Positions 7,268 to 10,210 of a DNA stretch of 10,210 nucleotides are shown in pieces. The stretch is from Lachnospiraceae bacterium UBA4292 (GTDB lineage: Bacteria; Bacillota; Clostridia; Lachnospirales; Lachnospiraceae): NCBI GenBank assembly GCA_002395865.1, contig DGVE01000120.1, positions 1 to 10,210 of the forward strand, in the 5' to 3' direction. Every line of letters starts with the position of its first letter. Position 1 is the stretch's first letter. A program made the translations under genes and the position numbers. Under the pieces are notes generated by a model. The model was not told the origin of the DNA. It did not search any database and worked only from the letters and a program-made list of their open reading frames with translations.

Positions 7268-7354
7268 GCCGGGGGCTGAATGAAAGCCCATATCCCGCGC
7301 TTATGACGCTTATCTTGCCGAGCCACATACCTTTCCGGACGGTTTTCAAGGAAG
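7268..7354. other. Short spacer after the AI-2E family gene
   Basis: No gene is seen. A weak 5-bp hairpin, GGGCT (7273-7277) and AGCCC (7285-7289), follows the stop but has no T-run, so I do not call a terminator. The rest leads into the repeat array. Confidence 0.4.
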
Positions 7355-7503
7355 ATTCTGAAGAAAGTGCATTTTTTGAGCAAAAAATATTGAAGAAACT
7401 GCACTTTTGCGGTAAAAAGATATTGAAGAAACTGCACTTTTGTAGTAAAAAGATATTGAAGAAACTGCACTCTTGAAACAAAAAGATATTGAAATAACTG
7501 CAC
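7355..7503 (+). repeat. Tandem array of 33-bp direct repeats ahead of the DUF4143 ATPase gene
   Basis: The core ATATTGAAGAAACTGCAC occurs at 7387, 7420 and 7453, each exactly 33 bp apart. It recurs at 7486 with one change (GAAATAACT). A diverged copy at 7355 (ATTCTGAAGAAAGTGCAT) matches 14 of 18 positions at a 32-bp spacing. The 15-bp remainders are also alike (TTTTGCGGTAAAAAG, TTTTGTAGTAAAAAG, TCTTGAAACAAAAAG), so units are contiguous and there are no unique spacers. Differences are greatest at the two outer units, as expected for an array that expands and contracts from the middle. The last core ends 4 nt before the GGAGGG ribosome binding site of the ATPase, so the array must lie in its promoter or leader. 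Reading it as coding gives an 11-residue repeat only because 33 is divisible by 3. Confidence 0.95.
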
Positions 7504-7516
7504 ATACGGAGGGCTT

Positions 7517-8854
7517 ATGTTTAAAAGAAAGGCGATGGACCGGCTTAAGGAGTGGAAGGATATGTATGCACCCGGGTATGCGGCCTTGCTTGAGGGGGCG
7601 AGACGTGTAGGCAAATCCACTATAGCTGAGGAGTTTGCAAGGGAGAATTACCGGTCGTACATCAAGGTGGATTTTGCGAACATAGAAAAGGATCTGAAGG
7701 ATGTATTTGATGATATAGCAAGTCTGAATGTGTTTTTCCTGAGACTTCAGACGGTAACAGGTGTCACTCTTTATCCGCGCGAGTCCGTTATCATATTTGA
7801 CGAGATTCAGAGAAATCCGCAGGTACGGCAGGCTATAAAATATCTGGTTGCCGACGGCAGATATGATTATATCGAGACCGGTTCGCTTATCAGTATCAAA
7901 AAGAATGTGAAGGATATACTCATTCCGTCTGAGGAATATAAGATTCCTGTCTATCCCATGGACTATGAGGAATTCATGTGGGCCATCGGAAATGATACAT
8001 ACGGAGTGCTTAGAGATCTGTACAGGCAGAATACGGAGGTCGGAAACGGCATCAACCGCAAGCTTATGCGCGATTTCCGTATCTATATGGCTGTCGGGGG
8101 GATGCCGCAGGCCGTGCAGGCCTATGTCGACGGCAGGGATTTTATGTACATCGATAGCGTGAAGCGGGCGATAATCGATCTCTACATCGATGATTTCAGG
8201 AAGATCGATCCGTCCGGACTGATCGGAAAGATGTACCGTTCGATTCCATCCCAGCTGGCCACAGATAAAAAGCGATATGTGATAGCGAGTGCCACGAAGA
8301 AACGCAAGACGGTCAGAGATCTGGAACGGTTCTCTGATCTGGTAGATTCGAAGACGGTAATAGTGTGTTATAACACTTTGAACCCGGGTGTAACGCTTTC
8401 GCAGACCAGAGATTATGACTCATACAAGTTGTATCTGTCAGACACAGGCCTTTTTACAACGATGATATTTGATGCGGCAAATGACGTGGGAGACAATATA
8501 TACAGTAGGCTCCTCAGCGATAAGCTGCCTGCAGATCTGGGCTACCTTTATGAAAATGCTGCGGCTCAGATGATGACGGCCGCAGGAAGAGAATTGTATT
8601 ATCATACATGGGCTAAGGATGAGAGCACACACTACTATGAGGTGGATTTCCTTTCTCAGTCCGGTGTGAAGATCATCCCTTTCGAAATAAAGTCATCTAT
8701 AACGAAGACCCACAGATCCCTTGACGAATTCTGCAAAAAGTATTCGAAATCTGTCGGCAGTGCATATCTGTTTTCACAGAAGGATGTTTCTAAAAATGGT
8801 GCGATCAGGATGAAACCGGTATATATGCTGCCGTTTGTATTGGAGGAGATGTAG
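7517..8854 (+). CDS. AAA-family ATPase with DUF4143 / PD-(D/E)XK-like C-terminus
   Basis: A 445-residue protein. Residues ~20-150 are an AAA_14-type ATPase domain: Walker A EGARRVGKST (Lys33), Walker B VIIFDE (Asp95, Glu96) and a sensor-like ETGS (Thr121-Ser123). The middle (about 150-300) is helical and basic. The C-terminal part (about 310-445) fits DUF4143, which has a restriction-endonuclease-like fold, with EVDF (Glu375, Asp377) followed by FEIKSS (Glu390, Lys392). These are the D and ExK positions of PD-(D/E)XK, so it may bind or cut nucleic acid, although cleavage by this family is not generally established. The ATG has GGAGG (7508-7512) only 4 nt upstream. It is a single-gene unit behind the repeat array, with a terminator 59 bp after its stop. 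Two sampled 60-base lines are 42-43% G+C against about 55-63% in sampled lines of neighbouring genes, hinting at transfer. No cognate antitoxin, methylase or transposase is adjacent. Confidence 0.9.
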   Translation: MFKRKAMDRLKEWKDMYAPGYAALLEGARRVGKSTIAEEFARENYRSYIKVDFANIEKDLKDVFDDIASLNVFFLRLQTVTGVTLYPRESVIIFDEIQRNPQVRQAIKYLVADGRYDYIETGSLISIKKNVKDILIPSEEYKIPVYPMDYEEFMWAIGNDTYGVLRDLYRQNTEVGNGINRKLMRDFRIYMAVGGMPQAVQAYVDGRDFMYIDSVKRAIIDLYIDDFRKIDPSGLIGKMYRSIPSQLATDKKRYVIASATKKRKTVRDLERFSDLVDSKTVIVCYNTLNPGVTLSQTRDYDSYKLYLSDTGLFTTMIFDAANDVGDNIYSRLLSDKLPADLGYLYENAAAQMMTAAGRELYYHTWAKDESTHYYEVDFLSQSGVKIIPFEIKSSITKTHRSLDEFCKKYSKSVGSAYLFSQKDVSKNGAIRMKPVYMLPFVLEEM

Positions 8855-8912
8855 AGTGTGAAGGTGAAAGAAGTAATCTATTGTCAATGAGAACGGATAT
8901 TTGCTTTTGTGC

Positions 8913-8942
8913 GCCCCATGGCTTATTGCCGTGGGGGCTTTT
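8913..8942 (+). terminator. Rho-independent terminator of the ATPase gene
   Basis: GCCCCATGGC (8913-8922), loop TTATT, and GCCGTGGGGGC (8928-8938) pair with one bulged G and one G-T wobble, then TTTT (8939-8942). It lies 59 bp after the ATPase stop and closes that transcription unit. Confidence 0.8.
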
Positions 8943-9022
8943 CCCATTGATAGAGCTTGTGAACAGTTAGTGAAATGGTTTAGAAGTGAAGAAGAAATAA
9001 CAGTTATTTGTTAATGCGGTGC
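8943..9022. other. A+T-rich spacer before the fold-back element
   Basis: No gene is seen. There is a small palindrome AAATAAC-A-GTTATTT (8995-9009) and a direct repeat AACAGTTA (8962-8969 and 8999-9006). GTTAAT (9010-9015) could serve as a -10 box placing a transcript start at about 9022, where the fold-back begins, but no convincing -35 is present. Confidence 0.3.
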
Positions 9023-9221
9023 CGGCGTGTATGATTATTTCAATCAAAAAACAAGGGGATGTGCGAAAACAATTCCTGAGCGGAAGTCAGCGCAGGAGCC
9101 TGCCCCGGTTTTGCGGCATTATCGCAATACCGGGGCAGGTTCCGAGCTATGAAGCGAGGGATTTGTTTTCGTGCATCCCCGTATTATTTGTATGTGAAAT
9201 ATGAAATGATCATACTCGCCG
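9023..9221. ncRNA. 199-bp fold-back element: candidate structured RNA (6S-like layout) or MITE-like palindrome
   Basis: Three nested complementary segments were found by eye. Outer: 9023-9042 with 9202-9221, 20 bp, 18 identical to the reverse complement, one of the two differences a G-U pair. Middle: 9055-9072 with 9163-9180, 18 bp all paired, two of them G-U. Apical: 9095-9115 with 9123-9143, 21 bp with one wobble and one T-T mismatch, around a 7-nt loop GCATTAT. CAAA (9045-9048) with TTTG (9187-9190) partly bridges outer and middle. Between middle and apical lies an unpaired bubble (9073-9094 and 9144-9162). A closing stem, a central bubble of about 20 nt per side, and an apical stem in about 200 nt is the layout of 6S RNA. 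The 5' bubble strand CCTGAGCGGA also resembles, from memory, CCTGAGCCGA in E. coli 6S RNA. If it is RNA the strand is probably plus, but a fold-back gives a similar structure both ways. The alternative is a small non-autonomous element with 20-bp inverted termini; I see no clear target-site duplication. The fold is well supported; its function is not. Confidence 0.45.
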
Positions 9222-9237
9222 ATTTCCCCCAAATTCC

Positions 9238-9287
9238 ACCCCTCTGTGTTGGACATCTGTTGGACACAGAGGGGTATTATTATACAT
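9238..9287 (+). terminator. 12-bp hairpin after the fold-back element, possible terminator
   Basis: ACCCCTCTGTGT (9238-9249) pairs perfectly with ACACAGAGGGGT (9264-9275) around a 14-nt loop, followed by an A+T-rich ATTATTATACAT. This could end a transcript coming from the fold-back element. The tail is only partly T, so strength is uncertain. The loop region also carries a direct repeat TGTTGGACA (9247-9255 and 9258-9266), so an operator or attenuator for the following gene is an alternative. TTGGAC (9260-9265) and TATACA (9281-9286) are 15 nt apart, a poor promoter for that gene. Confidence 0.45.
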
Positions 9288-9340
9288 AACGGACGTAGGA
9301 GACCCTTTGCGTTGAAGTGAGTTTGAAAGGAGGTGCCGCT

Positions 9341-10210
9341 ATGTCTGATAAAGATGCGAAGATGATACTGGCGTACGGCGCCGACAGGGAGATCGCCGGG
9401 GGAAGCGCAGCGGAGTATATAGAGAATATACAGAGAAAGCTCGCGGGGTGTACCTCCGTGGGGGAGGCATATGTCGCGCGGATAATGGCTGCGAGGATGC
9501 TCGCGGGGTCCGAGCGCGGCAGCCGGAGGAAGCTGGTCAGGACACCGCTTACCGTTCAGGAGATAGAGGAGAGGGCCACGCTGCTGGAGAAGGACCCCAC
9601 GTTCAGGGGCTTCTGTGACAGAGGAGGGCTGGTGCCCGACGATGCGCTGGGAGGCCACGGCGGAAGGCTGGACGATAAATTTACGGAGTACATCAGGAGC
9701 CTTCCGGAGGGCTCGGATATAAACAGAGAGCTGCTTTCAAGGTATATCGAGAGAGATTATGTGTCGTTCGACGATTTCATTGACAGGAACACAGGCAGGA
9801 AGCTTAAGGATGGCGAGGATCAGGTATTCCTTGCGGCAAAGCTGTGCGCGGCGGCAGTCCTCAGAAACACCGGCCAGCCGTTTTCTTTAGCGGGCGTGGG
9901 AGCGGGCGCCGACATGGTCATGCAGGATTCGGTATTTCTGCTGGTGGTTAGAAATAAAAACGTGCTCGGCTTCGCGACGGGGGGAAGGATGGATACCTTC
10001 AACAAGGTCACGATGAAGCTCTATGAGAATGTGTCGACCTGCAGAGCCAAGGAGAACCTGCGAATGAAAAAGATAGGAGCGGCCATCGCAAAGCTCACAT
10101 ACGCGCAGGAGACTCCGGCGGTACAGAAGAAGATGATGGCGGGCAGAAGCGCACAGTATAAGAGCATGGTGAAGGCGGCCAAAGCGATAGTGGACGCATA
10201 CGAGAGGGGT
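9341..10210 (+). CDS. Protein of unknown function (3' partial)
   Basis: An ATG with an ideal AAAGGAGGTG (9326-9335) 5 nt upstream opens a frame of 290 codons without a stop, running off the right edge. I do not recognise a family. The visible protein is soluble-looking, without signal peptide or membrane helices, and is rich in Arg, Lys, Ala, Gly and Glu. Residues ~1-80 are helical and charged (SAAEYIENIQRKLAG). The middle holds VSFDDFIDRNTGRKL. Around residues 165-215 is a small-residue, hydrophobic segment (FLAAKLCAAAVLRNTGQPFS, then SVFLLVVRNKNVLGFATGGR). The visible end is basic and helical. A sampled line is 63% G+C, well above the ATPase before it, and codon choice matches the ABC exporter region, so it looks native rather than recently acquired. 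Its ending and true length cannot be judged from this window. Confidence 0.85.
   Translation, partial: MSDKDAKMILAYGADREIAGGSAAEYIENIQRKLAGCTSVGEAYVARIMAARMLAGSERGSRRKLVRTPLTVQEIEERATLLEKDPTFRGFCDRGGLVPDDALGGHGGRLDDKFTEYIRSLPEGSDINRELLSRYIERDYVSFDDFIDRNTGRKLKDGEDQVFLAAKLCAAAVLRNTGQPFSLAGVGAGADMVMQDSVFLLVVRNKNVLGFATGGRMDTFNKVTMKLYENVSTCRAKENLRMKKIGAAIAKLTYAQETPAVQKKMMAGRSAQYKSMVKAAKAIVDAYERG

Follow-up and report, generated by a model that had tools for sequence, protein, structure and literature searches.

A scattered hairpin repeat family with a conserved core and changing, still paired stems in Lachnospiraceae

The window, that is, the whole stretch of 10,210 nucleotides analysed here, comes from a draft genome (G000; 2.1 Mb in 231 contigs, 71.7% complete) and carries at positions 9023–9221 a fold-back located between two genes of the same strand. 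The 5′ neighbour is an AAA_14/DUF4143 gene that ends at 8854, and the 3′ neighbour, starting near 9341, has no match to any Pfam or NCBIfam model. The plus-strand RNA of the fold-back has a minimum free energy of −114.1 kcal/mol (z −13.55, with 0/200 shuffles as stable), the minus strand being less stable (−93.9, z −10.5). Folding thus bears out the fold-back described in the first-pass annotation, apart from small coordinate slips. Its parts, with pairings read from the sequence together with the fold, are given in Table 1. Two further repeats were observed in the window. One is a second short palindrome at 9235–9275 (CCCCTCTGTGT..ACACAGAGGGG, with a loop containing TTGGACATCTGTTGG); a string related to this loop motif, TCTGTTGGACATCTGTTGG, is present beside a copy of the fold-back on contig C194. 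The other is a tandem array at 7352–7503, shortly before the start of the AAA_14/DUF4143 gene (7517), with 4.6 copies of a 33-bp unit and 85% matches.

Table 1. Parts of the fold-back in the window
Feature	Position	Strand	Pairing, sequence and basis
Outermost stem, 5′ arm	9023–9042	+	pairs with 9202–9221; sequence and fold
Family module common to other copies	9051–9184	+	span of the match to covariance model R1
Middle stem, 5′ arm	9055–9077	+	pairs with 9158–9180; pairing kept though copies differ in sequence
Conserved core, 5′ strand	9078–9096	+	GAGCGGAAGTCAGCGCAGG
Apical stem, 5′ arm	9095–9115	+	pairs with 9123–9143; fold, repeat scan
Apical loop	9116–9122	+	7 nt, GCATTAT; fold
Apical stem, 3′ arm	9123–9143	+	fold, repeat scan
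Conserved core, 3′ strand	9142–9157	+	CCGAGCTATGAAGCGA
Middle stem, 3′ arm	9158–9180	+	fold, copy comparison
Outermost stem, 3′ arm	9202–9221	+	sequence and fold

The outermost stem, earlier described as 20 bp with G-U pairs, does have 20 columns, but these comprise 18 Watson–Crick pairs, one G·U (9036/9208) and one T·T mismatch (9028/9216) rather than 20 clean pairs. Likewise, the apical stem of ‘21 bp’ has 21 columns, not all paired, as one T·T mismatch lies inside it. The 18 pairs of the middle stem (9055–9072/9163–9180, with two G·U at 9062/9173 and 9063/9172) and the 7-nt apical loop stand as first read; past a U·U mismatch (9073/9162) the middle stem extends into 9074–9077/9158–9161. Among the arm differences said to keep pairing as G-U, those at 9036/9208, 9062/9173 and 9098/9140 do so, but 9061/9174 is a G-C pair, the second G·U of the middle stem being 9063/9172. 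An independent repeat scan reports the middle (9045–9076/9159–9190) and apical inverted repeats; the outermost stem is absent from it due to the lack of an exact 9-base seed.

With its size of about 200 nt and its closing stem, bubble and apical stem, the fold-back resembles 6S RNA (RF00013), and it had been proposed as the possible 6S RNA of this genome. Size and layout are all that speaks for this proposal. No Rfam family exceeds its cut-off (gathering score) in the window, and 6S is not among the four sub-threshold matches found around the feature (8860–9340) at E values up to 10, three of which are to microRNA families and one to a CRISPR repeat family. A clear 6S RNA does lie elsewhere in the genome, one of two observations that, according to the first-pass annotation itself, would weaken its 6S reading: RF00013 scores over its cut-off at G000:C160:11019–11218 (62.9 bits), its sole match in G000, as it does somewhere in 7/7 genomes searched. 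Furthermore, unlike 6S RNA, the fold-back is present in many copies. The 6S identity was rejected on these grounds, its probability being next to nil, and a false 6S candidate is taken out of consideration.

The fold-back is a member of a scattered family of hairpin repeats. BLAST against its own genome, the copy-number check suggested at the outset, returned eight other places, a tenth match being the opposite strand of the window copy, and a 20-base core pattern occurs at nine places, window included. A covariance model search added a second copy on C194, which an N gap interrupts, and reading added one at the end of C132, so that the genome holds at least 11 dispersed copies (the window copy and ten others). 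Three of these are incomplete, C146 through truncation and C231 and C132 because a contig end cuts them. Since contigs end inside copies, more of them are probably missing from the assembly. The copies differ in their flanking open frames. The homology between C93 and C180 has sharp limits: it takes in the outer arms and stops about 31 bases left and 52 bases right of the core, beyond which the flanks are unrelated. These two copies agree in their outer arms and not in their apical stems; the reverse holds for C101, C180 and C194, which have a common apical stem and different outer arms. As judged by their sequences, apical stems combine freely with outer arms among copies, with at least four apical stem types in G000. 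In both the C194 and the C132 copy, a pair of additional hairpins sits at one and the same position in the bubble. The pair in C194 was considered as a separate insertion and this was rejected; due to its presence at the same place in C132, it is taken as a variant of the element. The copies on C101 and C180 (L009 and L010) each have another short palindrome, CCCACGACCGGCGGG, nearby. Altogether, the elements are <500 bp, non-coding, multi-copy and located at unrelated insertion sites, which are features of a MITE.

What is constant in the family was defined by the alignment of seven copies, six from G000 and one from the Lachnospiraceae MAG CALWLH010000017.1. The 5′ core strand is identical at every base in all seven and the 3′ core strand nearly so, with a GA-rich internal bubble common to the copies; those on C146, C194 and C206 each have one difference from the 20-base core pattern. 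The stems on either side of the core change and remain paired, with both-sided changes in 22/35 pairs and pairing in 87% of cells. None of 500 shuffles gave as high a count and slid controls gave 6 to 11, a comparison somewhat favoured by the structure having been drawn from folds of the same seven copies. Compensatory changes in helices, as expected of a structured RNA, are thus found, and arm changes that keep pairing suggest that the folded RNA itself matters. As for the arms of the G000 copies, they are not conserved as terminal inverted repeats (TIRs) from copy to copy, while the inner core is.

Relatives were sought at increasing distance. The covariance model R1, built from copies including that of the window, was searched in 61 genomes and matched G000, G002 (four matches, in two tandem arrays) and G003 (two matches), the last two being other species of the window's genus; none was found in G001 or the 57 others. 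A core model, R2, matched three of 397 genomes of the family (G000, G003 and G126), in a search that scored 10 first-look candidates per genome and may therefore have missed some. G126 is a species of another Lachnospiraceae genus (best E value 8.8e-7) with at least 22 near-full-length copies of a 149-bp palindrome, a lower bound as 40/63 candidates were scored. The core of this palindrome reads CCGGAGCGGAAG ... GGAGCGRAGG. Among 40 relatives of G126 none matched, only G126 itself. A loose core pattern occurs in 9/397 family genomes (5 for the reversed control), with more than one match in G126 only. In viral contigs, the exact core pattern was found 0 times and the loose one in 29 stretches, none with a long complementary stem flanking it (best local score 7/20 bases), and blastn gave no match in phage and plasmid records. 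A 27-base BLAST match in G045 was set aside, since it lies at the edge of the query, outside the fold-back. Rfam searches with seven loci of the relatives, including two with a second hairpin type of G126, gave up to E 0.5 only two weak microRNA matches, far below the gathering score. No publication reporting the repeat family was found among the titles and abstract openings retrieved.

Two arrangements of copies were also seen in these genomes. In G126, six copies lie within 13 kb (L107, C4:297500–314500), four of them at a spacing of ∼1.36 kb, which looks like the tandem duplication of a unit made up of a gene and the element. In G002, three head-to-tail copies follow each other with a period of 114 bp (L108, C42:5008–5351); the one closest to the downstream gene has near-perfect arms and the other two imperfect ones.

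Signs of insertion were found in G126. There the ends of the palindrome are TIRs, AGGTAATTGSGAAACT, present at 73 places with ≤2 mismatches versus 11 for a control pattern, and direct repeats of 9–14 bp flank the copies. The flank-to-flank score is ≥8 in 10/16 scored copies (6/22 were dropped as their right end was not recognised) versus 2.5% of cross-pairings. Therefore, the family in G126 looks inserted like a MITE, and insertion is directly supported there. Shorter palindromes of about 38–66 bp retain only the TIR hairpin, and in other elements the same TIR encloses a different inner hairpin. Such a second hairpin type, with the same terminal repeats and the conserved strands TGTTCTTAGGCTGTCTACTACAGTTT / AAACAGTAACGACAGACAAAG, was observed at L160:464–662 and L161:493–692 (G126 C2 and C11); its stem differs between the two copies and still pairs. 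Most paired TIRs lie ∼200 bases apart or less, leaving no room for a transposase gene. A scan of 20 open frames, from the one wide TIR interval seen (C12, about 2.2 kb), the neighbourhoods of eight other loci with a single or short TIR and the flank of one copy, showed no transposase family, three frames being without any Pfam family. The inspection took in 63 of the 73 TIR places, leaving aside nine with 2 mismatches and one with 1 mismatch.

For the window's genus, 11 placements yielded no clear flanking direct repeats; the window copy is not among them, and for one of them the flank lies within the insert. The strongest direct repeat is the tandem array itself, and a distant 11-base flank match at C158 does not exceed the best of the cross-pairings. 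The suggestion of a MITE-like palindrome is supported by the dispersed copies and, in a species of another genus, by TIRs and direct repeats, but not by clear duplications in the window's own genus. As to the observation that had been expected to make it a MITE, namely many near-identical copies with target duplications, the copies are many but not near-identical, and duplications are found in G126 but not in the window's genus. For the window copy itself, we infer insertion from the homology of the core and the dispersed copies. Its outermost 20-bp stem, which has no second place in the assembled genome (BLAST E 0.001; other copies match from ∼9053 inward), may be what is left of the outer layer observed in G126, where an AT-rich bubble likewise separates the TIR stem from the middle stem.

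Whether pairing is kept in DNA or in RNA leaves a trace in the mismatches of the arms. If DNA pairing alone mattered, G·T and A·C should be equally frequent. On the core strand of 12 arm sets of the window's genus, there are 17 G·T versus 1 A·C in the module, defined for this count as the apical stem and 25 bases of each arm, and 13 versus 1 as distinct column-and-type events (p 0.002). A stricter alignment gives 12 to 1, while 20 and 30 bases per arm give 11 to 1 and 14 to 2. Longer arms that reach beyond the module weaken the excess (22 to 9 with 40 nt and 36 to 23 with 60 nt). The arm width was chosen after an earlier, wider count of 21 to 8, in which one copy entered twice, and so was not set in advance. 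In G126 (21 copies), cells give a ratio of 22 to 8 but distinct events one of 8 to 6, so that a G·T excess is not shown there. The early remark that G-U pairs hint at selection on RNA structure therefore holds for the window's genus but not for the distinct events of G126. In addition, the plus strand folds better in 13/13 copies, a preference partly built in due to the GA mismatches of the core.

Orientation bears on the same question. When strands are judged by reading the open frames, 10/12 copies of the genus lie in sense with the downstream gene; a cruder automatic assignment gives 9/12 in the genus and, in G126, 16/22, or 10/16 without one tandem cluster. Neighbouring genes are varied: the C146 copy lies between frames that we take to be folD and glyA, the C206 copy after what is presumably rpoC, and the copy on G003:C43 between genes that we read as tyrA-like and DAHP-synthase-like.

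These data weigh on two further explanations. The first holds that the element is a MITE or fold-back at the DNA level only, with complementarity arising from transposition and arm-to-arm correction (template switching) and a functionless RNA. It would account for the TIRs, the flanking direct repeats, the TIR-only palindromes and the near-equal distinct events, all in G126. However, in the window's genus the inner core rather than the arms is conserved and the 13-to-1 asymmetry departs from it, while the purine-rich mismatched bubble, which arm correction would be expected to remove, is conserved across genera; this explanation is unlikely, though it keeps an appreciable chance. The second, a free-standing family of structured small RNAs (or a cis-regulatory RNA) with several loci arising mainly by ordinary duplication, would fit the covariation in the stems, the strand asymmetry, the prevailing sense orientation and the tandem arrays of G002. 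Yet the open frames around the copies vary, the window copy has one promoter-like match versus 0.9 expected and no terminator-like site was found at it, the copy on C146 is truncated and G126 has its insertion signs, all of which makes a small RNA family quite improbable.

Among known repeats, prokaryotic MITEs come close (PMC10969869): they are likewise <500 bp, palindromic, non-coding, largely intergenic and of very stable transcript fold (QMITE2, for example, with its direct repeats of 7–9 bp, has a transcript that folds at about −113), and the G126 copies have TIRs and flanking direct repeats as MITEs do. Unlike the MITEs of that description, the copies of the window's genus have freely varying terminal arms and a conserved centre, with no clear direct repeats; most arm pairs of the family show compensatory change and no parent IS was found by the transposase scan at TIR places of G126. 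The bcr1 repeats of the Bacillus cereus group (167 bp, 31 copies, conserved stem-loop, according to a table in PMC2267715) are similar in size and have a stem-loop, a likeness of size and description in another bacterial group. REP palindromes, which have GTAG or CGTC tags and are associated with RAYT transposases, are also dispersed and extragenic, but at 20–40 bp (as given in the abstract of PMC3733652) they are smaller than the module of about 100–200 bp with its TIRs and direct repeats in G126, a comparison made by size. Comparisons with kink-turns and attC sites were considered and dropped.

The explanation that we favour, and consider likely, is a dispersed, non-coding, MITE-like palindrome that inserts as DNA, is carried in host mRNAs and has a transcript fold under selection. 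Its RNA part rests on the G·U asymmetry, the covariation and the orientation. Insertion would occur as DNA via a transposase acting in trans. Lying afterwards mostly in sense to the downstream gene, the element would be transcribed within the host mRNA, where the plus-strand RNA would form a long hairpin, and selection would keep this fold through arm pairing and an exact core. The most likely cause of such selection would be that, within the mRNA, this hairpin is bound, processed or tolerated; as for the partner, RNase III or a different protein that binds double strands is a guess. A more specific proposal, possible but rather doubtful, is that of a mobile element carrying an RNA module in which fold and not sequence is inherited: the fixed GA-rich core would be a likely protein or ribonuclease site, outer and apical stems would be swapped or rewritten, and the element would have spread in sense through host mRNAs in two Lachnospiraceae genera with the help of a transposase. 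Beyond this proposal, a repeat family without an Rfam match over the cut-off is now defined, and it provides a MITE-like element, open to testing, in which the RNA fold, not the terminal sequence, is apparently conserved.
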